IMG/VR virus record: IMGVR_UViG_3300009034_000229
Location: 1-21,889 of that record
Source: a virus
Length of the DNA: 21,889 bases
Direction: 5' to 3' (one strand)
Numbering within the stretch: the stretch's first letter is position 1; the number at the start of each line of letters is the position of its first letter. Below the pieces are notes generated by a model, which ran no database searches, was not told the DNA's origin, and saw only the letters and a program-made list of their open reading frames with translations. Position numbers and translations under genes: made by a program. Of this stretch, positions 1,553 through 21,382 are shown in pieces.

Positions 1553-1562
1553 GAGAACAGAA

Positions 1563-1757: not shown

Positions 1758-1768
1758 GGGAGTTTAGT

Positions 1769-1966
1769 ATGTTATGGGAAGTCGAAGCACACATAGAATA
1801 CCCTCTTACTGCTGATGTGAAGGATGAAGATGTACGTGTGTTGGTCGCAGCAGATAACCTCCTGAAAGCAGTGGAAATGGTTATTTGGCGTTGTAAATTG
1901 AGTGGTAACGCTTGCGTGACAATTAAGACTGCGTTTCCATCTGATATTACCCACATTCTTGAATAA
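1769..1966 (+). CDS. hypothetical protein
   Basis: A 65-residue protein preceded by AGGGAG seven bases before the ATG. It has an alternating beta/alpha pattern: an N-terminal strand (LWEVEAHIEYPL), then an acidic segment, then helix VLVAADNLLKAVEMVIWRC, then strand ACVTIKTAF. The shape of a small alpha/beta protein is visible but I do not recognise a family. It is spaced 11-12 bases from both neighbours on the same strand, so it belongs to the same operon. Confidence 0.6.
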   Translation: MLWEVEAHIEYPLTADVKDEDVRVLVAADNLLKAVEMVIWRCKLSGNACVTIKTAFPSDITHILE

Positions 1967-1978
1967 CGGAGACTCTAA

Positions 1979-5258: not shown

Positions 5259-5450
5259 ATGGCCGGAAAAGGCGATAGCTATCGACCCGTGGATCGGGAA
5301 AAGTTCAACAAGAACTTCGAGCGGATTTTTGGAACTTGTGATGAACCTAAACAGGGACAGTGTGACAATTTTGGATGCGGAGCTTTTGGGTTGTGCCCTG
5401 AGTGCCAAGCAGAGAACGACGAGAAGCCAAAGGGGAAACAAGATGGGTGA
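5259..5450 (+). CDS. small cysteine-rich (zinc-ribbon-like) protein
   Basis: A 63-residue protein whose ATG directly follows the primase stop, with GGAGG seven bases upstream. It begins MAGKGDSYRPVDREKFNKNF, an N-terminal pattern I associate with a widespread family of small phage proteins of unknown function. Cysteines C27, C35, C40, C46 and C49 include a CPEC pair and could hold one zinc ion. The C-terminus is charged. Its position between primase-helicase and nucleotide-metabolism genes suggests a replication accessory role, but this is context only. Confidence 0.7.
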   Translation: MAGKGDSYRPVDREKFNKNFERIFGTCDEPKQGQCDNFGCGAFGLCPECQAENDEKPKGKQDG

Positions 5451-5724
5451 CTTTTTCGATGCCACTGTCGGTCGAATGATAAAATCTCGAAAGGCCCGTG
5501 TCACTCTCAAACCCGAGGCTCGGGCTGCCGTCAAAGAAAAATTAGGCTGCACAGATGAGGAACTAGACGAGGCCCTGAAGAAGATGGGCGAGCAGATGAC
5601 CGAGCAAGCTCATAAGGATATGGATTATCTCCATAAACGAGGACAAGCGAAACAAATCGCAGACCTGGGTGCTTTGATTGCTATGCGAAAGAAGGAGAAA
5701 GCCAATGACCCAAATGCAAAGTAG
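5443..5724 (+). CDS. hypothetical charged helical protein
   Basis: A 93-residue protein starting MGDFFDATVGRM. I chose the ATG at 5443 because AAGGGG lies upstream and the start overlaps the stop of the previous gene by eight bases. The same frame is open much further upstream, but there it lies within the primase gene. The sequence is highly charged and helical (KEKLGCTDEELDEALKKM) and could form coiled coils. No family recognised. It overlaps the start of the next gene by 20 bases. Confidence 0.6.
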   Translation: MGDFFDATVGRMIKSRKARVTLKPEARAAVKEKLGCTDEELDEALKKMGEQMTEQAHKDMDYLHKRGQAKQIADLGALIAMRKKEKANDPNAK

Positions 5725-6829: not shown

Positions 6830-7551
6830 CTGCCGCCCACACACATAAACGCTTCTTCATAGGTTTCGACCGCCATACTCCCGAACACGATCCGGTAGTG
6901 GATGAAATCGCCCTGGCCTTTATTCACGATTTCAAGCCACACATTCGAGTAGCCGGTGGAGATTGGCAGACAGTCGATCAGATATCGAAGTTCAAGAATG
7001 ATTCAAAAACTGCATTAAAGGCTGATTTCCAGGCTAATGAAGCGGCCTTGGCAGCCTACGGAATCACTCACTACCTCGAAGGAAATCACGAGGAACGACT
7101 TCGGCGAGTGGGATTGGTGGAAGAAAATGTCCGTTCGATGTACGATCTGAAAGAGCATTTGCACCTAGTCAAGCAGCGAATCAAGCTGCTTCCCTACCAT
7201 CCGGAAAAGGGCGTTCTCAAGATCGGGGAACTCAAGATTCTCCACGGTTTCTTTGCGAATGAATATATGGCGAAGAAAACGGCAATGATATACGGTACGT
7301 GTGTGTTCGGTCACGCTCATAGATTTCAGACATTTCAATCTAAGCAGGCGTTCTACGACCGAGTGGGATTTGCGATTGGAATGCTCGGTCAAGTTCGTCC
7401 AAGCTGGGTTGAGCATCGAGCCCCGTTAGGGTGGGCTCAAGGATTTGCATTTGGCTACTTGCATAGGAATGGCCACTTTGATCTTTATCCTGTCCGGATC
7501 ATTGACGGCCGAGTGACAATCAACGGGCGGGTGTATACGGGAGGTAAATGA
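6826..7551 (+). CDS. calcineurin-like metallophosphoesterase
   Basis: A 241-residue protein with the full metallophosphoesterase signature in order: D15-R-H17, G45-D46, G86-N-H88-E89, H140 and G162-H163-A-H165. These residues hold two metal ions and hydrolyse phosphomonoesters or diesters. Some phage relatives act on DNA, others on nucleotides. The substrate cannot be told from the sequence. It begins at an ATGA overlap with the nucleotide-enzyme fusion and ends in a TGATG overlap with a MazG-like gene, so a role in the same nucleotide pathway is plausible. No signal peptide, so it should act in the cytoplasm. Confidence 0.85.
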   Translation: MTAAHTHKRFFIGFDRHTPEHDPVVDEIALAFIHDFKPHIRVAGGDWQTVDQISKFKNDSKTALKADFQANEAALAAYGITHYLEGNHEERLRRVGLVEENVRSMYDLKEHLHLVKQRIKLLPYHPEKGVLKIGELKILHGFFANEYMAKKTAMIYGTCVFGHAHRFQTFQSKQAFYDRVGFAIGMLGQVRPSWVEHRAPLGWAQGFAFGYLHRNGHFDLYPVRIIDGRVTINGRVYTGGK

Positions 7552-7886
7552 TGCCCATTCATCGTGCAATAGTTTACGAACGAATTGATGAAGAACGAGA
7601 TTATCAAGAAAAGTGTCGGCAGGAATGTAACTGGCGACCACAAGATGAATCCCATAAACCCCCAGAATGTTTTCTTGTTTACATTGACCGTTACCTTGAG
7701 CGGGCAAAGGAAGCTCAATTGCTTTCCTATGCAGAAGCGAAGCCCAAAGTATTAGCCCATATTCGCAAGATTGCGGCTTTAGCGGTCGCTTGTTTAGAAC
7801 TTCATGGTTGCCCAAAGCGGGACATGACCGACGTAGCTCGCCGGCCTGATTGGGGTGGACGAGCATTTAAAGGAGAAGACGAATGA
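7551..7886 (+). CDS. MazG-like (dATP/dGTP pyrophosphohydrolase-like) protein
   Basis: A 111-residue helical protein. The pattern ERIDEERDYQ (10-19), then YLERAKEAQ (48-56), then IRKIAALAVACLELHG (71-86) follows a phage family related to MazG-like nucleotide pyrophosphohydrolases (DUF550-like). The second acidic pair of the classical ExxE...ExxD motif is degenerate here, so catalysis is uncertain. Two ATGs lie in tandem at 7548 and 7551. I prefer 7551, since it sits six bases after GGAGG and overlaps the previous stop as TGATG. It neighbours two other probable nucleotide enzymes. Confidence 0.6.
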   Translation: MPIHRAIVYERIDEERDYQEKCRQECNWRPQDESHKPPECFLVYIDRYLERAKEAQLLSYAEAKPKVLAHIRKIAALAVACLELHGCPKRDMTDVARRPDWGGRAFKGEDE

Positions 7887-8365
7887 GAACACTGCTAGTT
7901 GCATTGCTGCTGGTTAGTGTGCTGGCGGGGTGTGGCAGCCCCCTGATCGACACCTGGGCAGATCGCGGTATCCAGGGTGTCGGCAACAGCCGGCACAATG
8001 TTTTGGAGTTTCGTGACAAGCTCCAAAAGGTCCTCCGAGATCGGAAGGATGATGAGATTGACGGGCTATTTCGTGAGATTCTTCGCGTCAGTAACGGTGA
8101 AATCGACGGCGTAAAGCTCGATGAACAGTGGCTCAAGGAACACAAGAATTCGTTTAAACTCCTGATGAAGTTGTGGGATGCGGATCAGAAGAACTTGGAC
8201 AAGGCAACGGCTGATGCCCTCGCTAATCTCGATTCAATTATCGAGATCTTTGAACAGATCAAACGTCTCCGTCGAGCGTGGGGTGATGTCGATCAGTTGC
8301 AGGTCCAGGTAAATCAATTGACCGCCCTGGTCCAACAACTTATCAACAGACAGAGAGGAAACTGA
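7883..8365 (+). CDS. phage lipoprotein with helical/coiled-coil body
   Basis: A 160-residue protein with a lipoprotein signal: basic MR, a hydrophobic stretch to residue 13, and lipobox L14-A-G-C17. After cleavage the cysteine would be lipidated and the protein held on the periplasmic face of a membrane. The rest is helical with a predicted coiled-coil C-terminus (QLQVQVNQLTALVQQLINR at about 139-157). A lipoprotein near a holin-like gene suggests a spanin-like outer membrane subunit, but it is longer than usual o-spanins and no inner membrane partner is evident. A superinfection-exclusion lipoprotein is another option. The start is an ATGA overlap with the MazG-like gene. Confidence 0.75.
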   Translation: MRTLLVALLLVSVLAGCGSPLIDTWADRGIQGVGNSRHNVLEFRDKLQKVLRDRKDDEIDGLFREILRVSNGEIDGVKLDEQWLKEHKNSFKLLMKLWDADQKNLDKATADALANLDSIIEIFEQIKRLRRAWGDVDQLQVQVNQLTALVQQLINRQRGN

Positions 8366-8367
8366 CA

Positions 8368-8868
8368 ATGACAGACATGCCCAACTATGATGCATCGGAT
8401 ATGCCTAATGGCGATCCCCCGCCGGCTCCCCCGGAGATCAACAAAACTCCTGCGGAAAATGCCGCTGCTGATTCAAATACCGAGCATGATGAAGAATATT
8501 ACGAAAAAGTGGCTGCGAATGATAGGGCAATGACGGCCGAAGTCGCGGCCCACGAAGACGAGCGAGCAGCACAACAATATGAAGATGATTCTGACCCCGA
8601 TCCATCTTCTGTGGACATCGACGAGATCATCGAAACCGCTGTCGGCGTCTCGATGGAAGCCTTCACACGTCGGCACCCGACTACGGCTCGATACCTTATC
8701 AGGCGACTCGGGGACCCTCTTGAGTTCACGATCAAGGCATTGAAGGAAGACGAGCTTTATCAGCAACTCATCGCCGACACTGAGGAAGCACTCGATGTTC
8801 GCAAAGCTATTCAAGTGATCGTCAGTGTCGCCCTCAGTGTGGCCGAGCGACTTCTGGTTACACTGTAA
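8368..8868 (+). CDS. acidic hypothetical protein
   Basis: A 166-residue protein. The first about 80 residues are acidic, proline-rich and probably disordered (PNGDPPPAPPEINKTPAEN). The C-terminal half is helical and ends with a hydrophobic helix AIQVIVSVALSVAERLLVTL. GAGGAAA precedes the ATG, and it lies two bases after the lipoprotein stop. No family recognised. Its place between the lipoprotein and the holin-like gene hints at a lysis or envelope-linked role. Confidence 0.65.
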   Translation: MTDMPNYDASDMPNGDPPPAPPEINKTPAENAAADSNTEHDEEYYEKVAANDRAMTAEVAAHEDERAAQQYEDDSDPDPSSVDIDEIIETAVGVSMEAFTRRHPTTARYLIRRLGDPLEFTIKALKEDELYQQLIADTEEALDVRKAIQVIVSVALSVAERLLVTL

Positions 8869-8880
8869 AGGAGAAAGTTC

Positions 8881-9129
8881 GTGGCATACTCTAAGAAAGT
8901 TCGGGACTTTTTGAAGGGAAAGAAAACCTACCTTACGGCCGTTACCGCTATTCTCACGGCTTTGGTAGCGTGGTCAAGTGACAGTATTAGTGCAACCGAA
9001 TTGGTTGTGGCTCTTTTTGTGGCCTTCCAGACAATGTTTATTAGAGCCGGTATGAATAAAGAAACGGAAAAAATCCGTGATGAAATCGTTAAAACTGCGG
9101 ACGATATAATTAACGACTGTGCCCCGTAA
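8881..9129 (+). CDS. holin-like small membrane protein
   Basis: An 82-residue protein with a GTG start and AAGGAG seven bases upstream. It has a basic N-terminus (KKVRDFLKGKKTYLT), two hydrophobic segments (about 18-31 and 37-54, split by a short SSDSISATE turn) and a charged C-terminal helix. This matches a frequent phage small membrane protein type often annotated as holin. Holins collect in the inner membrane and open it to trigger lysis. No endolysin is recognisable next to it, so the role is not proven. The stop overlaps the next start as TAATG. Confidence 0.65.
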   Translation: MAYSKKVRDFLKGKKTYLTAVTAILTALVAWSSDSISATELVVALFVAFQTMFIRAGMNKETEKIRDEIVKTADDIINDCAP

Positions 9130-9521
9130 TGAACCGATACACCAAAGACTTTCGATGGATCAAGATTCGCACTGACTTGATCCTGTTCGCCCAGGCACAT
9201 TGCGAATCTCGTGCCTGTGAGCGAGCATTCACAACGGGTAAGGTAGTGGTACTCGGTGGGTTTTCCTCCATCCCACCGAGTACCAACCCCGGTTGGATTC
9301 TGCTAGTAACTTCGATACATAAACGTACTTGGATCATTGGCGTAGAGGCAGACGACATACAACATCGCTATCATGTGCGTGAACTCGACAAAATACCGTG
9401 GGCGAAATGGGCCGGGGGATGGGCTTCTACCCTTCTACGGCCATCTTTGTTAAATGGGGACAAGCCTTCGGCTGCTTTGTTTGCTTGCCGGCAAGCACAG
9501 GAGAAGGCCAATGGTAGATGA
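9129..9521 (+). CDS. hypothetical protein containing a perfect hairpin
   Basis: A 130-residue protein, moderately basic, with a beta strand pattern (GKVVVLGG, GWILLVTSIHKRTWIIGVEADD) and a tryptophan-rich patch (IPWAKWAGGW). I do not recognise it. The ATG overlaps the previous stop as TAATG, consistent with translational coupling. The coding sequence around residues 40-53 is the strong 14-bp inverted repeat at 9247-9285. The 3' end overlaps the next gene by 11 bases. Confidence 0.55.
   Translation: MNRYTKDFRWIKIRTDLILFAQAHCESRACERAFTTGKVVVLGGFSSIPPSTNPGWILLVTSIHKRTWIIGVEADDIQHRYHVRELDKIPWAKWAGGWASTLLRPSLLNGDKPSAALFACRQAQEKANGR
9247..9285. repeat. perfect 14-bp inverted repeat, 11-base loop
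   Basis: TGGTACTCGGTGGG at 9247-9260 is the exact reverse complement of 9272-9285. The loop between them is TTTTCCTCCAT. It is the longest perfect inverted repeat I found in the window. No T-tract follows on the plus strand and no run of T follows on the minus strand, so it lacks the second half of an intrinsic terminator. It could be an operator, an RNA structure or a recombination or origin site. Confidence 0.7.
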
Positions 9522-9714
9522 ACTCGTCGATTGGGTCACCCTGGCCCATGCTGCGAAAATAATCGAGAAAGAGACCGGGCACAAGATCACCCGGCAGACT
9601 GTATATAATTGGGCGAGGCGAGGTTGGCTTCGAGTTGGAAAGTTCCGTCCCATACGGACTACCCGACGATGGATACTTGCCTGTTTAAACGAACATTATC
9701 GGAGTGGGAGATGA
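9511..9714 (+). CDS. small helix-turn-helix (excisionase/MerR-like) protein
   Basis: A 67-residue protein: VTLAHAAKIIEKETGHKITRQTVYNWARRGWLRVG spans about residues 9-43 and matches the winged HTH of excisionase-like and MerR-like small DNA-binding proteins (HTH_17 type). R-T-T-R-R at about 48-52 could be the wing. The ATG at 9511 has AGGAG ten bases upstream; the frame extends further upstream inside the previous gene but without a suitable start. It may regulate the switch between early and late genes, given its place near the end of the plus-strand unit; that is inference. Confidence 0.7.
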   Translation: MVDELVDWVTLAHAAKIIEKETGHKITRQTVYNWARRGWLRVGKFRPIRTTRRWILACLNEHYRSGR

Positions 9715-10097
9715 TGAATCCACCACACCTACACATGATAATCAGTCGAAGGATGATAATTATACTGCACGATCAGTGTGAAATGGCAATCGGAAAGAAA
9801 ACGCTCACCTTCCATCAGCTTGAAGCCTTAACCCATAGCAATGGATTCCTCTTGTGGAACCATCGAGGGTCCTGGGGTATTGTATCCAATTCCCACTTAG
9901 CCGAATGGCTACGGAACATAGAATTGTTCAAACAACAGAAAAAGCAATACCCCCGTCTGGTATTAAAAGTCCCTACGATAGACTTCCGAAGCACCATCCC
10001 TGTGCCGGATCGAGTAGCGAAGGTCCTCCGATCACAGAAGGCTTCCCAGCAACTTGACAAGACCGGCCCCGGCCCCGGCCCCACCGCCGGCGGCTAA
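9711..10097 (+). CDS. hypothetical protein, last plus-strand gene
   Basis: A 128-residue protein starting MMNPPHLHMI. The ATG at 9711 overlaps the stop of the HTH gene, with GGAG six bases upstream; ATG 9714 is also possible. The middle has a WNHRGSWGIVSNSHLAEWLRN segment. The C-terminus is a low-complexity GPGPGPTAGG tail encoded by CCGGCC repeats. The last 66 bases overlap the 3' end of the minus-strand gene that ends at 10032. No family recognised. Confidence 0.55.
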   Translation: MMNPPHLHMIISRRMIIILHDQCEMAIGKKTLTFHQLEALTHSNGFLLWNHRGSWGIVSNSHLAEWLRNIELFKQQKKQYPRLVLKVPTIDFRSTIPVPDRVAKVLRSQKASQQLDKTGPGPGPTAGG

Positions 10098-10268
10098 ACC
10101 GATCAGCAGCCACTTGAATCTCTCAAATCGCTTCACGATCCCACTGTGAGCCCCGCAGTTGTGATCGTGCAGGGCGAAGGCTTCATCTAGGATACGGGGC
10201 AGACTTCTGCTCAAGTAAAGTTCGATCTGCTCGCCCACTTCCCGTCGTTGATCGTCAGTTAAAGCCAT
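10032..10268 (-). CDS. small membrane protein, holin-like candidate
   Basis: A 78-residue protein. The N-terminal half is soluble and helical and includes HDHNCGAH (residues 34-41), with possible metal or disulfide-forming residues. The C-terminal half is a single hydrophobic segment (about 53-78) with a glycine/alanine-rich stretch GGGAGAGAG. It lies one base after the stop of the 1630-residue virion gene and would be the last gene of the late unit. A small membrane protein at the end of a late unit could serve lysis. Its gene runs into the convergent plus-strand gene over 66 bases. Confidence 0.6.
   Translation of the reverse strand: MALTDDQRREVGEQIELYLSRSLPRILDEAFALHDHNCGAHSGIVKRFERFKWLLIGLAAGGGAGAGAGLVKLLGSLL
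10063..10093. repeat. CCGGCC tandem repeat plus 10-bp palindrome in convergent overlap
   Basis: Three CCGGCC units run from 10063 to 10080, and the self-complementary CCGCCGGCGG is at 10084-10093. The stretch codes on both strands: G-P-G-P-G-P on the plus strand and a G/A-rich membrane segment on the minus strand. It is where the two transcription units meet. It lacks a T-tract, so it is not a standard bidirectional terminator. Confidence 0.5.
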
Positions 10269-10269
10269 T

Positions 10270-13200
10270 TTATCGCTGCTTTCTGCGTCTTACCCCTCGT
10301 TTACGAAGTTTTGTAGGTTTCTTTTCCCGGGTTGCACTTACCATGAATCCCAGACTTTTCGCCCAACCATCCCACCCATCGATATAACCTAATTGCCAAT
10401 CAATCATTGATTGCATTTGAATCGGTGTCGCTTGTTTTGCCTGCCAAAGAAGAAACGACGGTGTTTGCTCCCATTCAAGCGGGCCTCCACCAAACGCCTC
10501 CCATTTAACTACCTCGCCCTTACGGAATAGATCACCAATGGAAGTAAACTTCCGACCCCGCCAGTCTTCTCCGGTTATGGCATCCAAAGCCATACGAGTG
10601 AGAACACTTCCCTTCCCCTTTGCAGCCCGCCAAGGGTCCACAGTAAACTTTGCCGGATCACGGAAATGCCCGAGGAAATTAAAATATTTACGTTTCCCAT
10701 CTTCACCCCCAAGTCCACGATAAATGGGTGTTACATCAATATCCATCCACTTGAGATTCCCGGCCTTCCATGCTTTCTGATATCGGGACCAGAAAGTTTC
10801 GTCATCCCATGCTGAGAGTAGAAGGTTAGAGAGAATAATGATTCCAACCCCCTTCAGAGCAATTCGACCCCACATGGCTCGATGGACTTTTCCCATCTCT
10901 CCCTTTGCAAATGCAGCCGTCATGGAACGGATATTGGATTCTGTCCAGTCTGGTGCCAAAGCAAGCAATTGAAATATATGTTGTGCGGTTGGATTCCGGC
11001 CTCGCCGTCGTAGATTTAATCCACCGAAGTCATGATTCATTTCCCTGGCAACTGCATGTGCAATTTCCCGATGAGAAATTCTGCCATCTGCAAGTTTAGA
11101 CTCATTAGCTTTCACACGGGCTCGATAGTCCAAAAGGGCTGCTTGGACTTTTAAATACGGTCCAAGTTTATGGAACAAAAAATCAAGCTGATGGTCCCGC
11201 CATCTTAGGAGAGTGTCCTTTACGGCCCCGACCATTGGAACTTTATCTATAGCTTTTCCGATTAATGTTTGTTGTTCGGCATAAGATCGTTGATAGTCCT
11301 GTTCCCGACCTACTGTCATTCCCTCGTGGATCAACAATGTTAATTCCGGATCAAAGTTCTCTATTGCTGCCTTACCTGCGTAATATGCAGATCGAGGATT
11401 GATACCCCGAGAAGCAAGCATAAAGGATCGAAGATATGCTTGATGATGAAAAGCACTAAAGAATAGAATTTGTTGCTTAATAATGGCATTATACTTGGAA
11501 AGCGTTCCAACTCCAGGAAGTTCACGAATTGCCGAAGACCCCAAAGCATTGTTGAGATATGTAGCGAGCTTTTTCTCGGCATATATGGGGACTCGATGAA
11601 ATAGATTCCCATCCGGATCAATGAATACACCCGCCCCATAAGCTTTACCTTCTTCAGCTTTCCCAGCCCAAGTCCACTTTTGAAAGTTAGGGTTCTTGAC
11701 CAGCTTCCATCCACGTCCAGGACTTGTCGTGGCAAACAGCCCGCCTTTTATGCCGAGTTCCAGAAGATTGCGATCAATAATCACTTGAGCGATTTGTCGT
11801 CGAGCGACTTCTTGGGCCTCGATTACCCCTGTGACTTCCAGTTCAAGGCCCATCTCCCAACCTGCAAGGATCGAACCAAGGGTTCGTTGTCGCTGTCGTC
11901 CGGTCATGGTTGCAAATTTCGCTTGTAATGCTTTTCCCTTTTTCCCGGCCCACTTCCATATACGGGCAGCATAGTTTTCATGGAAGTTATTGATAATTTC
12001 ATTGTCTTTGGCAAACTGACTCAATACCTGATTTTCTTGGATAGTTCGCTCAACGAATTCAATCTGCTCCGGAGACATCTCAGCCACACGCTTAATCTGA
12101 GCTTGCTTATCGGCCGGCATCGCGGCTATTCGAGCATTAGACCAATCGACTGGATTATTCTTCATATCGATATAGAGAAGCATCGCATCATTTACTTGGG
12201 CAAGTGTCTCGCCTTTCCGAACCAAAGCTTTCAAAGCTTCCCGTTTCTTCTCAGCTAAAACTGCCGCTGTATGATCGGCTACATCACGGTCCCCAGCCCA
12301 TTTGTCTGTGAGAGCGTATGGAGAATCCTGTCCCGGTTCCCGAATATCAGGGAGGTCTTCGACATCAGGGATCGATTCTAAGAGATCGGGCGGTAACATT
12401 GCTTCAGATTCACGAGCCTTGTTTGTATCGCTTCGACGAGCAACTTCCATTGAAACGTCAGGGGGCACACCTTCTTGCAATATAGGCGGTACATCAAGCA
12501 AAGTGCGACCGATTTCGTAAAACTCATTTGCCGCAGCCTGATGAACGGCCGGGTCCTTCATCAACGAGTTCTCAACCTGGGCCTCGCTCAAGTCTCCCTC
12601 CGAGACCACTGTAACAGCATCAGCAAGTTCAGTTCCCTTGTATAGAGCAAGATTGTAAATATTCAAATGGGAGATTACGTCGGCGTTTCGTTGAATAAAA
12701 TCAAACGACCGAGCATAGGTTTCAGCCGTCTCCCCTGGAAGACCGACGATAAAGTTAGCGACCAAGCTGATATCAGCCTCGCGGAGCTTCGCCACGGCAT
12801 CATCAATTAGCTTCTCATTCGCCGGCTTCTTCATCTGTTTGAGGATCGGATCGTTGTAGGACTCGATCCCGAGTTCCACATACCTGATACCAGCTTCCTT
12901 GAGGAACTCCGGAGTGAATTTCTGCATCTGAGCCGCTGTCGTCTGAACTACAAAACCCTGGAAGTCGGGATTACGTTCCTTTACCCGTTTAAACACCTCA
13001 GTCAAATATGTATGATTTTCAGCTTGGCCGAATGTCTTATCGTCCAGATAGACTAACTCAGCATCAAGATCGACAATCGCATCGACTTGTTGATCGATAG
13101 TTTCTTGGGAAGTTTCTTCCAGTGTGCCAGGAACCGTGCAAAATGCACATTTATGAGTGCAACCCTTCGACATAGTGAGCCGGGGCATTGCTCGCGTACC

Positions 13201-15162
13201 AGCGAAGTGTCGATAATTGTAACCTTCCGCAGTTTCTTGCCCTTCGACCTCAGCCCAATCCTCGATAGAATCATATTGCTCTACATGCTCTGCAACAATA
13301 TCACTTATATCTGCATATCCACCCAGAATAGTTCGACCTTTATAACGTTCTGTGAAATCTTGCACAAGTGGTTTATTAGCATCAAGAACACTGAATGCTA
13401 TCTGCCCATACCCAGCTTGATTGGCAAATTCTACTGCTTCATCTTGATTCCGAACGATATATACATCAGCATTCGGAAACGCATGAGCCGCCCGTACTAT
13501 CCACTGCGGAACTTCCCAGAAATCATCAGGACGTTCATAACCCTGTCGAGTCTCGTAGAGTTTGTCATGATAAGCATCGGCGTTAGAACTTTCTTCTCCG
13601 ACAGGAGCGAGTCCAGCTTCCTTCCTTACTTCGGCTTGAGCGGCAACAACTTCAGCTTCAAGAGCAACTTCTTTTGCAGGAGCAACCTCCGCTCTAGCGG
13701 GCTGTGCTCGTTGGACCAGGGGTGATGCAAACTGCACGAGCAGAACCCGATCTGCATTGTCGGCGGCTGATGTTTGCCGTACATGGATATTCTCATATCC
13801 AAGCGGCATTGCTGTGCCCTCCCGATGAACGGCCGCCCCTCGGGCATAGGAGTCTTGAGGACCCGTTACGGCAGACCCCGGACTCTTAACAGCAAAATCA
13901 AGATTCTGCCGAGGAAGTTCCGCCGTGGTGGGCTGCCGGCGAGGCATTCCAGCTTCCGGCCCTATAGGAACATTAGGGATAGGATTGCCGTCATCGTCTA
14001 CGAACACAGCCCCTTCTCCCGGTCGCTGAGGACCGAGACGATTCGATATAGACTGAGCCGAAGCAAAGGCCCCACCAAGTAAAAGGACCTGGGCTGCTCC
14101 CATTTGTCCGGCTGCATGAGCCCGACTCAGGAATTCACTTTGATCTATCTCCGGCGTAATCCCCAGAACTTTATTCGTGGCATCTTGGCCAATCTGGGCA
14201 AGGAATTCCTCGACATATCCTTGTGGGACATCGGCAAGCACACGTCCGAGAGCCTTCTTAGAGAACTTTTCCAACCATATTCGGGCTCCCCGCCATCCAT
14301 CTTTCGCCAGCACACGTCGAAGACCAGGAGCATTACGTAGTAGACCACTTGCCAAGTGAGACGCTGCCGCCCACCCAAACATTTCAGTAGCAGTTTCGAT
14401 CAGGCCATTACTAACCGCAGCCGTCCACTCATTAAGCATTCCAATATCTTGACCTTCAAGCCGTCGCTGGGCAACCTCACCAAAAGTCTGCCCGGCTGCT
14501 GAAACTCCGAACATACCAGCAATCGGAGCAGCCTTCGCCAGCCGTTGAGCCCAAGTTAAACCCGAGCCGGCACCTCCGACACCCCCCAACAAAGAGAACA
14601 TTGTAGTACCGACGATTTGTCCCAAAGCCCCACTCGCCCCTCCGGTTGGAGCGAGGATTCGATTCGTCTCGTTTAAATGCTTCTGCCACTTTCCGATTGC
14701 ATCATCAGAAATCTGAATCGTATCCGCAACTTTCGCCCCGGTAGCCACGATCCCACCGATACTCTGAAGGAAAGTATTCGCTATATTATTCTGGAAATTA
14801 TGCCACGCACTTGCTTTCGACCGCCGGGCTCGCATCTCATAAAAACGATCTTTGGGGATCGCCCCTTCTCGTGTAAGATAAAATGCTTCCGGTTGTTCAC
14901 CGACCATCTGACGGTAGGCGTCCTGAATTGCTACCTGCTCATTGGCAGTGAGTCGCTGGGCTCCCCGTGCATCTCGCTCAGTTTGATACTGCTGTATGCG
15001 AGCCGATGCCTGCCGCATGAAATTATCGGGCGTCACATTTCGCAGGTCGATGGGCTCGGTTCGCTGCTGAAGCATATCCTGTGCTGACCATACTTGCGGA
15101 AGGTCAGGCTTCATTGGTTTCGCTGGTTTCTGAAACTCTGCCGGTGTCCAGGTCTGGGGCAT
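10270..15162 (-). CDS. 1630-residue polyvalent virion protein with embedded radical SAM domain
   Basis: The largest gene. Residues 1 to about 530 look like an internal virion protein: helical, with hydrophobic glycine/alanine-rich segments at about 167-210 and 348-370, then an A/E-rich linker. Residues about 552-616 form a Rossmann-like segment ending in ILGGY, as in the B12-binding part of some radical SAM proteins but without the cobalamin DxHxxG motif. A radical SAM core follows: C668-T-H-K-C672-A-F-C675, G765-I-E-S768 and N803-F-I-V-G-L-P-G-E-T812. Residues about 1000-1630 are helical, with a membrane-like segment at about 1438-1454 and a very basic tail; they resemble the C-terminal part of large phage polyvalent proteins. 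The start overlaps the previous stop (TAATG). Packaging in the virion and ejection into the host are inferred from context and domain style. Confidence 0.75.
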   Translation of the reverse strand: MPQTWTPAEFQKPAKPMKPDLPQVWSAQDMLQQRTEPIDLRNVTPDNFMRQASARIQQYQTERDARGAQRLTANEQVAIQDAYRQMVGEQPEAFYLTREGAIPKDRFYEMRARRSKASAWHNFQNNIANTFLQSIGGIVATGAKVADTIQISDDAIGKWQKHLNETNRILAPTGGASGALGQIVGTTMFSLLGGVGGAGSGLTWAQRLAKAAPIAGMFGVSAAGQTFGEVAQRRLEGQDIGMLNEWTAAVSNGLIETATEMFGWAAASHLASGLLRNAPGLRRVLAKDGWRGARIWLEKFSKKALGRVLADVPQGYVEEFLAQIGQDATNKVLGITPEIDQSEFLSRAHAAGQMGAAQVLLLGGAFASAQSISNRLGPQRPGEGAVFVDDDGNPIPNVPIGPEAGMPRRQPTTAELPRQNLDFAVKSPGSAVTGPQDSYARGAAVHREGTAMPLGYENIHVRQTSAADNADRVLLVQFASPLVQRAQPARAEVAPAKEVALEAEVVAAQAEVRKEAGLAPVGEESSNADAYHDKLYETRQGYERPDDFWEVPQWIVRAAHAFPNADVYIVRNQDEAVEFANQAGYGQIAFSVLDANKPLVQDFTERYKGRTILGGYADISDIVAEHVEQYDSIEDWAEVEGQETAEGYNYRHFAGTRAMPRLTMSKGCTHKCAFCTVPGTLEETSQETIDQQVDAIVDLDAELVYLDDKTFGQAENHTYLTEVFKRVKERNPDFQGFVVQTTAAQMQKFTPEFLKEAGIRYVELGIESYNDPILKQMKKPANEKLIDDAVAKLREADISLVANFIVGLPGETAETYARSFDFIQRNADVISHLNIYNLALYKGTELADAVTVVSEGDLSEAQVENSLMKDPAVHQAAANEFYEIGRTLLDVPPILQEGVPPDVSMEVARRSDTNKARESEAMLPPDLLESIPDVEDLPDIREPGQDSPYALTDKWAGDRDVADHTAAVLAEKKREALKALVRKGETLAQVNDAMLLYIDMKNNPVDWSNARIAAMPADKQAQIKRVAEMSPEQIEFVERTIQENQVLSQFAKDNEIINNFHENYAARIWKWAGKKGKALQAKFATMTGRQRQRTLGSILAGWEMGLELEVTGVIEAQEVARRQIAQVIIDRNLLELGIKGGLFATTSPGRGWKLVKNPNFQKWTWAGKAEEGKAYGAGVFIDPDGNLFHRVPIYAEKKLATYLNNALGSSAIRELPGVGTLSKYNAIIKQQILFFSAFHHQAYLRSFMLASRGINPRSAYYAGKAAIENFDPELTLLIHEGMTVGREQDYQRSYAEQQTLIGKAIDKVPMVGAVKDTLLRWRDHQLDFLFHKLGPYLKVQAALLDYRARVKANESKLADGRISHREIAHAVAREMNHDFGGLNLRRRGRNPTAQHIFQLLALAPDWTESNIRSMTAAFAKGEMGKVHRAMWGRIALKGVGIIILSNLLLSAWDDETFWSRYQKAWKAGNLKWMDIDVTPIYRGLGGEDGKRKYFNFLGHFRDPAKFTVDPWRAAKGKGSVLTRMALDAITGEDWRGRKFTSIGDLFRKGEVVKWEAFGGGPLEWEQTPSFLLWQAKQATPIQMQSMIDWQLGYIDGWDGWAKSLGFMVSATREKKPTKLRKRGVRRRKQR
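12583..13185 (-). other. radical SAM core domain (about residues 660-860 of the 1630-residue protein)
   Basis: The CxxxCxxC cluster-binding motif is encoded at 13138-13161. The C-terminal side keeps the E-L-G-I-E-S (strand 4-type SAM-binding) and glycine-rich NFIVGLPGET motifs in the right order and spacing. Radical SAM enzymes use a 4Fe-4S cluster to cut S-adenosylmethionine and start radical chemistry such as methylthiolation, methylation or rearrangement. All key residues appear intact, so activity is plausible. The substrate is unknown. Confidence 0.85.
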
Positions 15163-15998
15163 TAGCGAACCTCCGTGAATTTACTACCATCCCATCGGCC
15201 CACTCGACCATCAGGAGCCTGATAAACTGTACCCACAACCCACTCTGATTGTCGAGCCGGCAAAGGTACTGGTGCTGTTGGTGCAACCACGGGTCCTCGT
15301 ACGGCTCCGGTAGCCGCAGAACCCTGAAGACCCGCTTGAATCTCACCCCACTCCTGATCTTGCTGTTTACGAAGGGTATCATATTCGACTCTCACAGCCC
15401 GAAGTTGCTTCCCGAGAGCCGCCACTCGATGAGTCTCCTGCCTCTGCAATTCTGGAACTATCTTCCCTTCGTCATCGAGAACATCATAAGGCGTAGTAAT
15501 TTCTTTTTCTAATCCCCGCATTCGAGCTTCTATTGGCTTCAATTCTCGATTCCAACGATCCTTCCAAAAGCCAATCTGCTGTGCAGTGCTTACAGGTTTC
15601 GGTCTTGGAACAGCTTCAGCAACAGTTCGACCGGCTGCAATATTAAGTTTCATTCGAGCTTTTTCCCCCTCACTCAATCCGGGTATAAGTTCCAACTGTT
15701 CAAGCTGCTGTTGCTCTCGGGTAGCCCGAACCATTTCAGTAACAATCGGACCCGGTATCGCCGCAGCCCGTGTTGGAGTACGGGCCGCACGACTCATCGC
15801 CGCTCGTTGTAGAGCGAAAGCCCGATCAGAGGCTTGAAGCCGTGCAGCCGTTTCAGCAAAACGGGCCTGTGTTCCCAGAATCATTTGAGTGAAAGCAATA
15901 TCACCGGCTTCCTGTTGCCGACGGGCCGCACCCGCCCCAGCCGCTTGAGCTAGAGCCGTAAGCTCACGAATCGGACTATAATCAATTCGGATAGCCAT
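15162..15998 (-). CDS. probable internal virion protein, coiled coil
   Basis: A 278-residue protein. The N-terminal half is alanine/arginine/glutamine-rich helix (residues about 15-110), followed by a P-rich break, a charged helix with repeated RGLEKEI and QLRAVRVEYDTLRKQQDQEW segments, then a flexible V/A/P linker and a short C-terminal beta module (VYQAPDGRVGRWDGSKFTEV). Small terminal beta modules of the W-D-G-S type occur in phage structural proteins. Its place between the other internal-type proteins suggests an ejected or core protein. Both ends use 1-base TAATG overlaps, so it is translated with its neighbours. No named family. Confidence 0.55.
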   Translation of the reverse strand: MAIRIDYSPIRELTALAQAAGAGAARRQQEAGDIAFTQMILGTQARFAETAARLQASDRAFALQRAAMSRAARTPTRAAAIPGPIVTEMVRATREQQQLEQLELIPGLSEGEKARMKLNIAAGRTVAEAVPRPKPVSTAQQIGFWKDRWNRELKPIEARMRGLEKEITTPYDVLDDEGKIVPELQRQETHRVAALGKQLRAVRVEYDTLRKQQDQEWGEIQAGLQGSAATGAVRGPVVAPTAPVPLPARQSEWVVGTVYQAPDGRVGRWDGSKFTEVR

Positions 15999-17152
15999 TA
16001 TAGATTCTCTCTACTGAGTGTCGGCTGTTTCTGCATATACGGCGTACCGGCAGCAGCCGCAGATGTCTTCGCAACTCGTCTATTCAAAGCGTGCCAAAGT
16101 GTCGGTCCCATCGGATATTTCATACCTCGTCGCTGCATGGCCGCTTTATACTCTTGATAGGTAGCAAATTTTTCTTCTTGCGGTGTCACCCCCCCACCAA
16201 TACCTGCACCTTCAAGGCCGACATCTACACCTGCCCCAATTCCCGCCCCTTCTTCCTCGGGTGGGATATCGAGTCCGGTCATTCTTTCCTCTCCGGGAGT
16301 CGTAGGAGCCCCCGGAGTCGTCGTTACTTGCCCCTGTTCACCCAAGAAGACCGACCCACCACCAGCTAAACCAGGAAGGCTCAGGCCCGTTGCCCGGCCT
16401 GTTTCAACGTCCCATCCTCGTGCGGCCCCTGTAGGTCCAAGATCAAGACCCGCACCGCTCGGTGCAGGATAGTAAGCCGCTGCGGGTTGAGCACCCCCGC
16501 CGCCGGCTCCGGGAGCTAGACCGCCACCAGCACCGCCGGCCCCACCGGCCCCACCATCCCCGTATTGAAACGGCTGCCCAAAGATATCACGACCTGCTTG
16601 AGCCTGCGGGCCGAGTACTGTAGCAGTCCTCTTAGCCGCAGCCGTCTCACTTGCTGCCGCAGCTTGAATCAACGAAGCATACAGACCCATATCAGGGCCG
16701 ACATCTTCACGCCGCTCCATCACTCCTGCCTTCAGGGCACCAAGCTGCATCTCGGCACCGGCTCGCTGCGTTAATACGCCGGCCTTTGCAGCAGCAGTAC
16801 GTTCCTCAGCCTCTTGAGTGGCCCGCTCGGCCGTTGCAGCAATCCCTCGTCGTTCAGCCTGACGAACTGTAGTCGCACCGAGACCCCGACTAATGAGGTC
16901 CTGCTCGGCAGCAGCAGTGGCTTTCTTCGCCTGCTCTGTGATCCGAGTACGGGCTGCTTCACCCGTCTGACTCATCAAGTCCATCGCCGCACCAAATGTA
17001 CCCTGTTCCGCGATCTGTTTAGTCAGACCCTCCATGTGAGTCATCAGGGCTTCGTAACGCTGAAGATTAGCCTCGTTCGCTTCCTCTTGCTTCTTCCGAA
17101 GACGCTTTAAAATTTCGTTAATATCAATAGTGCCGGTGACTTCGAGTGGCAT
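15998..17152 (-). CDS. probable internal virion protein, Ala/Gly-rich
   Basis: A 384-residue protein. Residues about 1-155 are long alanine-rich helices with heptad-like spacing (KRLRKKQEEANEANLQRYE, TAAAEQDLISRG). Residues about 195-330 are glycine/proline-rich and probably disordered, with GGAGGAGGAGGG and PGAPTTPGEE runs. The C-terminal 50 residues are basic with YQEYKAAMQRRGMKYPMGP. AAGGA precedes the ATG. The design fits a minor virion or ejection protein of a short-tailed phage, by analogy to the internal proteins of T7-like phages that follow the tail genes. No enzyme motif is visible. Confidence 0.55.
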   Translation of the reverse strand: MPLEVTGTIDINEILKRLRKKQEEANEANLQRYEALMTHMEGLTKQIAEQGTFGAAMDLMSQTGEAARTRITEQAKKATAAAEQDLISRGLGATTVRQAERRGIAATAERATQEAEERTAAAKAGVLTQRAGAEMQLGALKAGVMERREDVGPDMGLYASLIQAAAASETAAAKRTATVLGPQAQAGRDIFGQPFQYGDGGAGGAGGAGGGLAPGAGGGGAQPAAAYYPAPSGAGLDLGPTGAARGWDVETGRATGLSLPGLAGGGSVFLGEQGQVTTTPGAPTTPGEERMTGLDIPPEEEGAGIGAGVDVGLEGAGIGGGVTPQEEKFATYQEYKAAMQRRGMKYPMGPTLWHALNRRVAKTSAAAAGTPYMQKQPTLSRENL

Positions 17153-17162: not shown

Positions 17163-18833
17163 TTATGCTGAGGCCAACAATCCGATTGCTTCTAATTGTG
17201 CTAACAGTGTATTGAACTTTGTTGTTATATCCGCTAGAGTTCCGTCTGCATCTACAATATGAGCTTGTTGGACAACAGGCGTTGCATTCCAAAATCCAAT
17301 TTTCTGACCGACAGCAGTTCCCAACTTTGTTCCCGTGGTTGTATTAAAGGCTATATCAACGGCATCGGCAAGAGTAACAAGTGCCGTCCCAATTCGTAAT
17401 ACTTCTGCGAGTGTTTGTGGAGTGGTTCCCGATGCCCCCGCCGAAGTTGTTTTGAAAATAATTACTCCGGGTGTTGCGTTACCCGTTGATTTCCCACCAG
17501 CAATGATGAAATCGCCCGCCGCATTGTTCGTCCCCGAACCGCCTGCTACCTGAACCGTGACATCTCCGGGCGATACGGCCACGACTCCGTATCCGATATA
17601 GACATCATCTACATACCCAATTGCACTCGCTGATCCGAATATACCCTGATGGCTTGCTGTTGGCGTACAACTTGCACCAATCGCAATAGAACTAGCAATA
17701 GCACCACCAGCCGCCCCCGGCGTACAATTACTCCCAATGAATGTATTATACGACCCCGAAAGCGGATTAGGAAGATAACCGGCTCCCTGTCCGATACAAG
17801 TATTTCTGTCACCGCTTACATTCTTACCGGCCCCGCTACCGATACACACATTGCTGGTTGCAGTACCCTGAATATTAAAAGCAGCATTGGGACCAACACC
17901 TGTATTTACAGAACCCGTATTACCGAGGGGAGACTGACCGGCTTGAGTGCCGACGTATGTATTATAATTCCCTGTTGCACCACGACAGGCCGAAGACCCC
18001 AATCCAAAATTGTATGATCCTGTAGTACCATAACCCGCATATGCACCAAGAAATGTATTATGAATCCCGGCCACAATACTAAAACCAGCATTGTACCCGA
18101 TTCCTATATTATTATCTCCTGTGCAAGAAGGACCAGCGGATATACCCAAAAATAAAGATTTTGTTGTTGGTACATGAAAAATTGTAGAACCATCGAGTTC
18201 TATAATAGCCGTTTCATCTGTGAGATTTATATTGACAGCTTGAAATCCAGCATTCAATATCCAGGGATCACCCGACGCATCAATTTGAACGGGAGTCGCA
18301 TAACCCGTTAGACTTCTGAAAAAGTCGCTAACAAAAATATCACTTTGGAATTCAGCAGCCAAAATCCAGGGGTCACCCGACGCATCTATAAATTTAGCAT
18401 TATCCGTACTTGATGAAAATATATCGGTTACGATACCGTTTGCACCGAGACTCAGTGGGGTATCCAGCGTCACCCAGCTTTCGGCATTATCCCACTTTAA
18501 TGTAGCATCTTGGCCGTCCCCAAGAATCAAACCACTGGTATCGCTATCTATTGTAACATTACCTGTGGTAAGGAAATTGGCAGTTGCCGCTGTCCAATCG
18601 ATATGTTCGTTGGCTACATAATTAGGCAGCAAATCGTGATCGGCTGTAAGACCTGTAGAATCTTGACTCAATCCGCTGCCCGCTTGGAGATTTAGAACAA
18701 TTATACCACCGCTATCAACATTGAGAGCCCCACTAAACATCAGGGACATAGCCCCGCCAAATCGTTGGGCATTACGCCGATCTCGAATAGCTTCTCGCGG
18801 AGTACGAGTTATGCGTGCAAGGCCACGGGGCAT
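17163..18833 (-). CDS. tail fiber / adhesin with YadA-head-like repeats
   Basis: A 556-residue protein. Residues 1-30 are basic and may attach to the tail. Residues about 150-193 contain a duplicated DASGDPWIL. Residues about 228-400 are serial repeats with N-T-x-x-G-x-x-A-G spacing (HNTFLGAYAGYG, YNTYVGTQAG, RNTCIGQGAGY), the pattern of the left-handed beta-roll head of YadA-like trimeric adhesins. The last about 55 residues (GTKLGTAVGQKIGFWNATP, then a LAQLEAIGLL helix) match a C-terminal module often seen in environmental phage fibers and probably promote trimerisation. It should bind host surface structures. The start overlaps the stop of the nozzle gene (TAATG). Confidence 0.75.
   Translation of the reverse strand: MPRGLARITRTPREAIRDRRNAQRFGGAMSLMFSGALNVDSGGIIVLNLQAGSGLSQDSTGLTADHDLLPNYVANEHIDWTAATANFLTTGNVTIDSDTSGLILGDGQDATLKWDNAESWVTLDTPLSLGANGIVTDIFSSSTDNAKFIDASGDPWILAAEFQSDIFVSDFFRSLTGYATPVQIDASGDPWILNAGFQAVNINLTDETAIIELDGSTIFHVPTTKSLFLGISAGPSCTGDNNIGIGYNAGFSIVAGIHNTFLGAYAGYGTTGSYNFGLGSSACRGATGNYNTYVGTQAGQSPLGNTGSVNTGVGPNAAFNIQGTATSNVCIGSGAGKNVSGDRNTCIGQGAGYLPNPLSGSYNTFIGSNCTPGAAGGAIASSIAIGASCTPTASHQGIFGSASAIGYVDDVYIGYGVVAVSPGDVTVQVAGGSGTNNAAGDFIIAGGKSTGNATPGVIIFKTTSAGASGTTPQTLAEVLRIGTALVTLADAVDIAFNTTTGTKLGTAVGQKIGFWNATPVVQQAHIVDADGTLADITTKFNTLLAQLEAIGLLASA
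17634..18152 (-). repeat. protein-level repeats, beta-roll region of the fiber
   Basis: Repeats of roughly 15-25 residues with G-x-x-A and N-T-x-x-G motifs, encoding residues about 228-400 of the fiber. At DNA level they are diverged, so they are visible mainly in the translation. Two cysteines per few repeats are unusual for a phage fiber (C237, C283, C330, C346, C370, C389). Confidence 0.65.
18255..18386 (-). repeat. 21-bp direct repeat encoding a duplicated motif
   Basis: CCAGGGATCACCCGACGCAT at 18261-18280 recurs with one change (A to G) at 18366-18385; the match covers 20 of 21 bases. Units are 105 bases (35 codons) apart. They encode two copies of DASGDPWIL in the fiber. The high identity suggests recent duplication or a gene-conversion tract. 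Confidence 0.6.
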
Positions 18834-21328
18834 TACAGTCGCCCTTTTCGAGTTTTACCTGTCAACTTTATAAGGCCGGTCATCGATTCCAATGCCCAAG
18901 TACGAGCACTTGTCGAGGCATTCGCCAGTGCAATGATAATGGAATTACCATTCACTCGCTGACGAATAGAGGAATTCCGTCCAGCTTGCAAAGTCCGTGA
19001 TACCAATGGAGTGAGATCATCGAATGCGGCTTGAGCGGATTCATTTGCATAGATTGAAAGCGAAATAGGGTCCGAATCTTCGGCAAGGATAATAGTGAGT
19101 TCCGTCAATCGAATATTTGCTAAGTCGCCCGCTGCAATAATCGGAGTGAATATAACTGAACTTGTAATCGCCGTACTATCATCGGTCGATGATTCCGATA
19201 TATAACGAAGGCGTGAATCAAAGCCTCCAAGTATCATGGCTCGATCATCGGGGTCATCAGCATCATAAGTCCACACAGCCGTAGGTCCAAAGCCCAAAGG
19301 AAACTCATCAGCCCAAAGACTATCTGTTCGTTGATCCCAATAGAAATGATACCCTGCTTCATCTGGTTGATTTGATGGTGTGACATATATATGAACGCCG
19401 TTACTTATATTGTCCCACAAAAGACGAATTCGATGAGTATCGTAATTGAAACCTAAGAAAGTATCGTGCATTCGACGACGACTTATATCCTCGGGTGCCG
19501 CAACTCCGGCCCCCATTCTCCAAAGAGTCGCCGCTCCAAAGAAATATAGGTTCCCAGCAGGGTCCCAAGTAAAGGCATCGGGTCCTGCAATACCCGTTTG
19601 ATAACTGATATTATCAATCACGCCCCCATCAGCCGGATCACCACGCATTATCCAGACTGTATGATCGCCCCCTATTATCATTAAATCATCACTATACGGA
19701 ATTAAGGCGGTGACTATATCGCCGAGTTTGCCCGCATCCGTATTCACCCCGGCAACAGCCATTGTTGCTGAAGTAGTTGCCGGACTATAATCCCAATCAA
19801 GAGGGTCTCCAACGGCTGACATGAACCAATTTTGAGGGTCTGTATGCAGACCACTCATTACGACTCGCCCACGATACAAAGCAATAATATTACATCCAAC
19901 AGCAGCTTTTGAAATGGTTCCCTCAACTGTCGCATCTGGAATTGTTTCGGCAACCGTAATCGTAAAGGCTGGAGCCGCATACGCTATCCCCGCAACCCGA
20001 TAGATGCCGTCATTTAAAGAAGTCCCCGCAACTTCAATATAACTATTAACAGGAAGTAATGCTGATAGATCGCCATCTCCACTGATTGTAAACGTACTTG
20101 CTCCCACATTTACCCCATCAATAGTGTAAGCTGTCGCTGCACTTTCCGTGCTAACTGGCAAACAACCTGCGGTTGCAATCCACGGATCAACATTATGCGT
20201 AAGGGGGTCATACACATTATAATCGAAAGCGATACCATCACAACCATACAAATTTCCAAGACATTCTTGAAGACCTATTCGCCCCGATGTCCGAAACTCT
20301 ACGGCTGCTGTAATAGCTTCTGACGCCCCATCGGCCATTGTTACGTGATATACTCGCCCACCACTTACAGCTACAAGTTTCGTACTTCGACCAGAAGCCG
20401 GCGTTCGCCCCGTGTAAACTGCAAAATCATCGAACCACCAATCTAAATTTACTGCCCATTGCGAAACACCAAAACCGATATAAGTATTCGTATTTAATGT
20501 GGCGGTCGTGGTTTCAAGAACTTTTATATCATCGATCCAGACACTAATATTATCACCAAAAACTCGAACTTCGACAACATGAGATGTGGCCCAAAAATCA
20601 GCCGGATAGCCTAAATCAGTGTCCAAATCTACAGAAGATGTCCCATCGGCCCCCATTGATATTGCAGCATGACCGGCCTCATCGTCCGCAAATGAAAACA
20701 CTCCCGCAAATCCATAATTGTTCCCCGCAATCGGGGGAGAAGACGGATCACCCGCCCGTATGATTGCGGCCATATTTTGAAGCTGCGTGGCTCCCGCATT
20801 TGCGGTATTAGATTGACAGGTCCACCGAACAATATAACTACTTCCCGGTGTGATTGCAGTCTTAATCATTCCAATTCGCGTATTAGTACCCGCCCAATCT
20901 TGCCCATCAATGGCATTATCTTTCACAATGGGTCCATTTACCGTAGTCGCCAATGCTGCAATGCAATTAGGCGGCCAACCCCATTGATTTGTATCAAATA
21001 AATACCAATACGTCGTGGCCAACACTCCATCTGTCTGCGTGAATTGTTCATAAACCAGGGAATCTTCAGGAGTAACTGAACTTGCATCCCAGGCAGTTGT
21101 TACTTGACTAATTGCCTGAATCGGATTCGTACCATTAACAGCAGAACCGCCGATATAGTTAGCGTGACCATCACGCTGACCACCCCGAAGACGATGTTCA
21201 ATTCCATCGAAAGGACGGACATTGACCGCGAATGGCGTTGTCATCTCCGGCTGACGCCGATAGGCCCGAGTCTCATCAATTCCCTTAAATGGGAACTGTA
21301 TCTCTATTGGTTTCCGCTGATCTGGCAT
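18833..21328 (-). CDS. tail nozzle-like (tail tubular protein B-like) protein with lectin-like insertion
   Basis: An 831-residue protein. The parts before and after the insertion read like T7-like tail nozzle proteins: LVAVSGGRVYHVT, DPQNWFMSAVGDPLDWDYSP, LIPYSDDLMIIGGDHTVWIM, AGPDAFTWDPAGNLYFFGAATLWRM. These proteins close the tail tip and carry DNA through. Residues about 89-307 are an extra domain with FSFADDEAGHAAISMGA and WWFDDFAVYTG, like a concanavalin/LamG-type lectin fold. I start it at ATG 21328 because GAGGAAA lies nine bases upstream (GAGG at 21338-21341). The frame's earlier TTG at 21376 would run through the hairpin at 21345-21375 and has no RBS. It binds next to the fiber gene below it. 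Confidence 0.75.
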   Translation of the reverse strand: MPDQRKPIEIQFPFKGIDETRAYRRQPEMTTPFAVNVRPFDGIEHRLRGGQRDGHANYIGGSAVNGTNPIQAISQVTTAWDASSVTPEDSLVYEQFTQTDGVLATTYWYLFDTNQWGWPPNCIAALATTVNGPIVKDNAIDGQDWAGTNTRIGMIKTAITPGSSYIVRWTCQSNTANAGATQLQNMAAIIRAGDPSSPPIAGNNYGFAGVFSFADDEAGHAAISMGADGTSSVDLDTDLGYPADFWATSHVVEVRVFGDNISVWIDDIKVLETTTATLNTNTYIGFGVSQWAVNLDWWFDDFAVYTGRTPASGRSTKLVAVSGGRVYHVTMADGASEAITAAVEFRTSGRIGLQECLGNLYGCDGIAFDYNVYDPLTHNVDPWIATAGCLPVSTESAATAYTIDGVNVGASTFTISGDGDLSALLPVNSYIEVAGTSLNDGIYRVAGIAYAAPAFTITVAETIPDATVEGTISKAAVGCNIIALYRGRVVMSGLHTDPQNWFMSAVGDPLDWDYSPATTSATMAVAGVNTDAGKLGDIVTALIPYSDDLMIIGGDHTVWIMRGDPADGGVIDNISYQTGIAGPDAFTWDPAGNLYFFGAATLWRMGAGVAAPEDISRRRMHDTFLGFNYDTHRIRLLWDNISNGVHIYVTPSNQPDEAGYHFYWDQRTDSLWADEFPLGFGPTAVWTYDADDPDDRAMILGGFDSRLRYISESSTDDSTAITSSVIFTPIIAAGDLANIRLTELTIILAEDSDPISLSIYANESAQAAFDDLTPLVSRTLQAGRNSSIRQRVNGNSIIIALANASTSARTWALESMTGLIKLTGKTRKGRL
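20408..21064 (-). other. lectin-like (LamG/concanavalin-type) insertion in the nozzle gene
   Basis: Encodes about residues 89-307. The nozzle pattern breaks after QAISQVTTAW and resumes at RSTKLVAVSGGRVYHVT. In between are jelly-roll-like strands with an acidic pair (SVWIDDIKV) and the WWFDDFAVYTG close. The boundaries are my estimate from where the nozzle-like pattern stops and restarts. Confidence 0.55.
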
Positions 21329-21337
21329 TGTAAATTT

Positions 21338-21341
21338 CCTC
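21338..21341 (-). promoter_or_regulatory. ribosome binding site of the nozzle gene
   Basis: GAGG on the minus strand (within GAGGAAA), nine bases before the ATG at 21328-21326. It lies just after the tRNA-arm-like hairpin, so folding or processing of that hairpin could change access to this site. Confidence 0.6.
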
Positions 21342-21344
21342 AAT

Positions 21345-21375
21345 CGAGCATGAAGGAATCGAACCTTCATGCTCA
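21345..21375 (-). ncRNA. tRNA acceptor/T-arm minihelix-like hairpin
   Basis: On the minus strand, bases 21375-21364 pair with 21356-21345 in a 12-bp stem (11 Watson-Crick pairs plus one U-G at the base) closed by the 7-base loop TTCGATT. The last five stem pairs and the loop read GAAGGTTCGATTCCTTC, a full T-arm consensus with G53-C61 and loop TTCRANN. A 7 + 5 bp stack with a 7-base loop is the exact geometry of a tRNA minihelix. There is no D-arm, anticodon arm or CCA end, so it is not a tRNA gene. It lies in the 54-base gap between two late genes. No T-tract follows, so it is not a standard terminator. Confidence 0.6.
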
Positions 21376-21382
21376 AGTACTA

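Follow-up and report, generated by a model that had tools for sequence, protein, structure and literature searches.

Radical SAM genes are common in phages, and polyvalent proteins and radical SAM enzymes are each well-known kinds of protein. The polyvalent proteins surveyed by Iyer et al. in 2017 (PMC5512222) are giant multidomain proteins of phages and conjugative elements, proposed to be injected together with the DNA, and the virion RNA polymerase of N4 (~3500 aa) is a giant enzyme known to be ejected (PMC8954989, PMC12633501). The word "radical" occurs neither in the survey of polyvalent proteins (PMC5512222) nor in a review of ejection proteins (PMC8954989), and a search of open-access papers returned none in which a polyvalent or ejection protein has a radical SAM domain, in agreement with the initial annotation of the locus studied here, which knew of no described case. 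One paper considered as a prior case (PMC12633501) was set aside because "radical SAM" appears there in a passing remark on the HExxH motif. The explanation we favour for the present locus, and consider reasonably probable, is a podophage-type polyvalent scaffold whose cargo is an undescribed, phage-specific radical SAM enzyme that is probably ejected. We class as new the radical SAM subfamily and, with it, a class of giant-protein cargo, each of the parent kinds being already known; the enzymes that giant phage proteins carry as cargo come to include an oxygen-sensitive radical enzyme.

The window, that is, the whole stretch of DNA analysed, is an entire viral record of 21.9 kb and a linear fragment. 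A single unbroken frame, which the initial annotation had reported without naming its strand, spans 15162 to 10270 of the minus strand and encodes a complete giant protein of polyvalent type (1630 aa), the final gene of the virion module. Radical SAM is the only catalytic domain that Pfam recognises in it, and no polyvalent domain was found by the same search. GC content across the frame is unremarkable (0.54 in the N-terminal part, 0.48 in the radical SAM part and 0.47 in the C-terminal part). By hydropathy, aa ~175-375 (14038..14640, minus strand) form a Gly/Ala-rich, weakly hydrophobic N-terminal scaffold segment, within which aa 248-356 give a weak profile match (hhalign E 1.7e-4, probability 49%) to the N-terminal parts of the giants of four contigs syntenic with the window (L047, L055, L058 and L060). 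The C-terminal half had been described as polyvalent-type, and its homology to the C-terminal end of another phage giant bears this out: aa 1153-1419 (10906..11706, minus strand) align with aa 2778-3035 of the L030 giant (phmmer E 2e-18, blastp E 2e-17), which itself carries a radical SAM domain. The strongest hydrophobic segment of the protein, a possible membrane segment by hydropathy, follows at aa 1434-1452 (10807..10863, minus strand). Single-sequence scans with the N-terminal and C-terminal halves found no relatives, a two-sequence profile of the C-terminal half recovered only the L030 contig again, and this half gave no profile match to the C-terminal halves of the four syntenic giants. 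Neither Pfam nor PHROG matched T7 gp16-type proteins or a lytic transglycosylase in either half, and tblastn of the whole giant against 50,697 phage records returned generic radical SAM matches only.

The radical SAM core lies at aa 664-823 (12694..13173, minus strand). PF04055 (Radical_SAM) scores 64.2 bits here against a cut-off of 29.5 (E 2e-17), and the same family was matched independently on the DNA at 12694-13173 of the minus strand. The motif CTHKCAFC spans aa 668-675, with C668, C672 and C675 invariant in all 38 aligned module sequences, and is followed by GIES at 765 and GLPGE at 807. The remainder of the barrel and the C-terminal part of the module, with the motif ISHxNxYNLAxY and a final helix, occupy aa 824-905 (12448..12693, minus strand). 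An AlphaFold model of aa 468-905, built on the 38-sequence alignment, reached a pLDDT of 89 and a pTM of 0.85, and Foldseek matched it to radical SAM structures with a probability of 1.00. Profile, motif positions and structure comparison therefore all agree with the earlier proposal of a full radical SAM core with these three cysteines, GIES and GLPGE. On the strength of its motif, its curated score and its predicted barrel fold, the module is a member of the radical SAM superfamily, with SAM cleavage as its putative activity.

Upstream of the core, aa 473-660 (13183..13746, minus strand) form a degenerate cobalamin-binding-like Rossmann domain with the family motifs DFWEVPQW, SVLDxN and GGY. 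The initial annotation had noticed a Rossmann-like segment without a cobalamin motif at this place; in the model and the alignment the segment is completed to a B12-like domain by a strand at aa 473-477, and DxHxxG is indeed absent from the aligned family. An Ala/Glu-rich insert at aa ~483-527, modelled with low confidence, is specific to the window copy. No histidine of the N-terminal domain is invariant, the best being H652 (63% of sequences). The motif triplet comprises the only conserved cysteines, and auxiliary clusters of the methylthiotransferase type are therefore excluded. Motif and curated scores lend no support to cobalamin use by the module; some cobalamin users lack the motif, and binding itself is possible.

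Comparison with characterised radical SAM enzymes places the module near several of them and inside none. In the PDB, radical SAM enzymes match both domains, with AprD4 ranking best and MtaB, CysS, MgmA, MiaB and TsrM following. AprD4, a cobalamin-less 1,2-diol dehydratase with a B12 fold (6fd2), is matched over both domains with a TM of 0.60 and 17% identity; however, it is a bacterial biosynthetic enzyme outside virion-type proteins, and the window module scores only 25.7 bits against the AprD4 cut-off of 500. The class B cobalamin-dependent methylases (PhpK, HpnJ, TsrM, CysS and MgmA) likewise have a Rossmann domain followed by the barrel, but the module has neither their DxHxxG motif nor an invariant histidine in the N-terminal domain, and its best NCBIfam match, PhpK, reaches 81.6 bits against a cut-off of 600 (HpnJ, 62 of 578 bits). 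Membership of the curated B12-radical-SAM families was rejected on these scores, which lie far under the cut-offs. With MiaB and RimO the module shares the barrel (TIGR00089, 66 bits; TM 0.45-0.56), whereas the three extra N-terminal cysteines and a match to the TRAM domain are missing; the absence of those cysteines led us to reject a methylthiotransferase identity.

These likenesses bear on what the module might act upon. As the best folds are AprD4, a small-molecule dehydratase, and protein-modifying enzymes of the MgmA/RimO type, the module could modify a host protein such as the ribosome, RNA polymerase or a defence protein, as polyvalent ADP-ribosyltransferases do, or could make a small molecule. 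The occurrence of ART and GNAT domains in the same giants also speaks for such a role. However, the curated families of AprD4 and of the MgmA/RimO-type enzymes are missed by a wide margin, and neither a peptide-binding domain nor an auxiliary cluster was recognised, so that we regard this role as rather unlikely.

Three profile scans located the ~430-aa module at 62 other distinct loci, 61 viral and one bacterial. Forty of these loci have it embedded in an ORF of 1113-4974 aa (33 of them complete) and three in an ORF of 528-710 aa; the other 19 are short, namely 17 complete viral standalone genes (380-439 aa), one cut gene and the bacterial copy. The initial annotation had described the fusion in this one protein. 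The fusion stands but is no isolated case: the module proves to be a mobile, phage-specific one found in dozens of giant proteins. The recurrence also bears on whether an assembly error or a frameshift has joined separate genes. The window is a metagenomic contig and the module is found elsewhere as a standalone gene, which would be in keeping with such an artefact. However, the fusion recurs without a stop in ~40 distinct contigs of different metagenomes, the four syntenic relatives included, and the composition of the frame is ordinary; together these rule against a chimera or gene-joining frameshift, which we consider extremely improbable.

Outside viruses, a pattern-limited scan of 84,980 bacterial and archaeal species genomes, which may miss rare distant bacterial copies, yielded one copy, in Rhizobium smilacinae, and searching 398 Pseudomonadota genomes directly with the profile recovered only that gene. 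This copy (L053:9881-11167) is standalone, with an ABC transporter permease, a class II aldolase-like gene and an aldehyde dehydrogenase as neighbours. Foldseek against predicted viral structures gave a best TM of 0.55 at 16% identity, with no near relative among those proteins. The phylogenetic tree has two sides (support 100/96), one made up of 14 standalone copies and one in which the embedded copies are joined by six others that are shorter or standalone. Across the 38 module sequences 36 alignment columns are invariant, and dN/dS is 0.036 in the one close pair from which it was obtained, synonymous sites being saturated in two other pairs; the invariant columns and this ratio point to strong purifying selection on the enzyme. 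The best reading of these sequence data is that the module represents an undescribed radical SAM subfamily that is phage-specific and almost confined to viruses.

Within the giants, the module sits at widely different places (18-72% of protein length) and keeps varied company. Pfam searches of 17 module-bearing giants recognised DUF7178 in seven, ART-PolyVal and GNAT in five each, NUDIX in two, and LPD38 and RadC in one each; several of these domains are hallmarks of polyvalent proteins (PMC5512222). The relatives thus carry several unrelated catalytic domains per polypeptide, and the window giant shows radical SAM only, its C-terminal half resembling that of L030. The L028 giant resembles the L110 giant, which has no module, on both sides (38% identity over 300-1194 and 59% over 2996-3351), and the L028 module sits directly after the first L110-matching block. 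L058, the closest relative, has the module in common with the window giant and not the flanks, between which no match was detected. As related giants exist without it and L058 holds the same module in different flanks, the module, so far as these alignments tell, behaves as an interchangeable, mobile cargo. Ahead of the window module, a leader at aa 429-472 (13747..13878, minus strand; GSAVTGPQDSYARGA...ENIHVRQTSAADNADR) carries a motif with the consensus GSxITxPxxxY...NxWVR...N that is present in most embedded modules and in no standalone copy. This ~45-aa leader may travel with the module as a site of processing or docking. In the L045 giant (ORF 4667-16329, plus strand), the radical SAM core at aa ~2075-2200 is, by eye, seemingly split by an ADP-ribosyltransferase-like insert of ~110 aa (FYRGS...ATYLTEDP), which comes after the GLAG motif and nests one enzyme in another.

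The proteins described in the polyvalent survey (PMC5512222) compare well with these giants, in that relatives of the window giant carry ART-PolyVal, LPD38, GNAT, NUDIX and RadC domains and the setting among virion genes is alike. They differ in that no radical SAM domain is mentioned there and that the window giant has no polyvalent domain recognised by Pfam.

The setting of the giant was claimed earlier to be that of a virion protein, and the gene order supports this. On the minus strand, a head-closure-like gene, a spike-like gene and two helical genes precede the giant, which comes last, and the order is kept in L058, a contig in which almost every gene is syntenic with the window. The gene at 18833..21376 (minus strand) has an L058 homologue (E 8e-153) that matches PHROG 578, head closure Hc3 (E 4e-8), and is thus annotated as a head-closure (Hc3)-like connector protein. 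The tail-spike-like protein at 17163..18833 (minus strand) matches PHROG 4636 (E 2e-7) and has a homologue in L047. Two possible internal virion proteins follow: a Gly/Ala-rich helical protein of 384 aa (15998..17152, minus strand), with an L058 homologue at the same place (E 6e-43), and, directly upstream of the giant, a 278-aa protein (15162..15998, minus strand), with a weak match to L058 6567-7361 (E 7e-4). A search of phage records with the 847-aa and 384-aa virion genes gave no matches, and no isolate related to L047, L055, L058 and L060 was found among the phages searched. In the window and in all four syntenic contigs the virion module ends with the giant; two of these contigs, L047 and L060, also have a weak terminase match upstream, on the same strand. 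Looking for a portal (PF12236) yielded no match, a result that carries no information because the controls were silent too. The plus strand (1-10097) includes replication and metabolism genes, among them a Sak4-like ATPase, GroES, a D5-type primase, a dATP/dGTP pyrophosphohydrolase and a metallophosphoesterase. The GroES (Cpn10) co-chaperonin at 1070-1552 (plus strand, 56 bits) is present in L058 too, and at 5678-6829 (plus strand) an N-terminal dATP/dGTP diphosphohydrolase domain is fused to a DUF4406/deoxyribosyltransferase-like domain.

Like T7 gp16 and the N4 virion RNA polymerase, the giant is a large protein whose gene closes a podophage-like virion module, behind those of smaller proteins that are possibly internal. 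Unlike them, it contains a radical SAM enzyme, has no transglycosylase or RNA polymerase domain and shows no detectable homology. By analogy with these two and with polyvalent proteins, the giant is probably packaged and ejected. The initial annotation had called it a probable ejected virion protein; gene order and architecture fit this description, and they are the two grounds on which ejection is proposed. Under the preferred reading, the giant would be made with the late virion genes as a scaffold, packed in the head and ejected with the DNA. Once in the host cytoplasm, the radical SAM module would gain, or regain, a [4Fe-4S] cluster through host machinery. With electrons supplied by host flavodoxin or ferredoxin, it would split SAM to give the 5'-deoxyadenosyl radical and, at an early stage of infection, act on a macromolecule of the host or the phage; it is a testable candidate for the modification of such molecules within the first minutes. 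Against this reading stand the probable unfolding of an ejected protein on its way through the tail, so that the Fe–S cluster must be formed anew in the host, and, for the window giant, the single recognisable catalytic domain and the lack of a Pfam polyvalent domain.

The module might instead act in the cell that produces the virions, the giant being made late and perhaps processed, with virion proteins, a metabolite or still unpackaged phage DNA as the target. The 17 complete viral standalone genes need no ejection, two of the standalone copies (L103 and L099) stand beside a D12 DNA methyltransferase gene, and Fe–S enzymes are assembled more easily where they are made. However, fusion in ~40 giants, alongside ART, GNAT and LPD38 domains of the sort seen in proteins for which injection has been proposed (PMC5512222), suggests that delivery is important, and action in the producing cell seems to us the less convincing account, with a low probability.

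A nucleic-acid base would be our first, weak guess at the substrate because the recurrent partner DUF7178 (PF23802) is OGG2-like. The domain occurs in the same protein in 21 of the 40 giants and within 3.3 kb of seven of the 17 standalone viral copies. Its model (pLDDT 90) matches M. jannaschii OGG, an OGG2 N-glycosylase/DNA lyase (3knt), with a TM of 0.54 and a probability of 0.87, at Foldseek E values that are not significant (0.57-0.85). OGG2 chains also rank first when its sequence profile is compared with the PDB (E 0.003-0.004), and a Lys and an Asp are invariant. DUF7178 thus looks like an OGG2-type DNA glycosylase family, which suggests both a function and a partner for an unnamed family that no open-access paper was found to mention.

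These data would allow the radical SAM module and DUF7178 to be a nucleic-acid modification pair, a base being altered by the one and then removed or exchanged, with protection of phage DNA or damage to host DNA or RNA as the outcome. Besides the frequency of the association, the OGG model match, the OGG2 profile matches and the two invariant residues favour such a pair. However, a control scan found DUF7178 in giants without radical SAM, it likewise occurs without radical SAM in cultured phages, and the Foldseek values are as given above; an exclusive partnership was accordingly rejected for a frequent one. As searches found no DUF7178 in the window or in its nearest relatives' giants, and the domain occurs without radical SAM, the link to nucleic acids is weak for the window copy, and we hold the pair to be improbable as an explanation. 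More doubtful still is the wider notion that a virion-delivered radical SAM and OGG2-like glycosylase module constitutes a new class of nucleic-acid-modifying weapon or shield of early infection, the window copy having no fused glycosylase. If true, this would be, as far as we could find, the first radical-chemistry enzyme known to reach the inside of a cell by way of a virus particle.

Besides segments of the 21 giants, DUF7178 occurs at L051:5982-6587, L098:11694-12317 and L048:1466-2113, the first of these being a neighbour of the 393-aa standalone module gene of L051. The standalone copies adjoining the D12 adenine DNA methyltransferase gene lie at L103:9150-9950 and L099:1256-2062. A conserved protein of ~95 aa, of unassigned family, also recurs near standalone copies (L098:11423-11701, L051:7568-7870 and L090:6824-7105).
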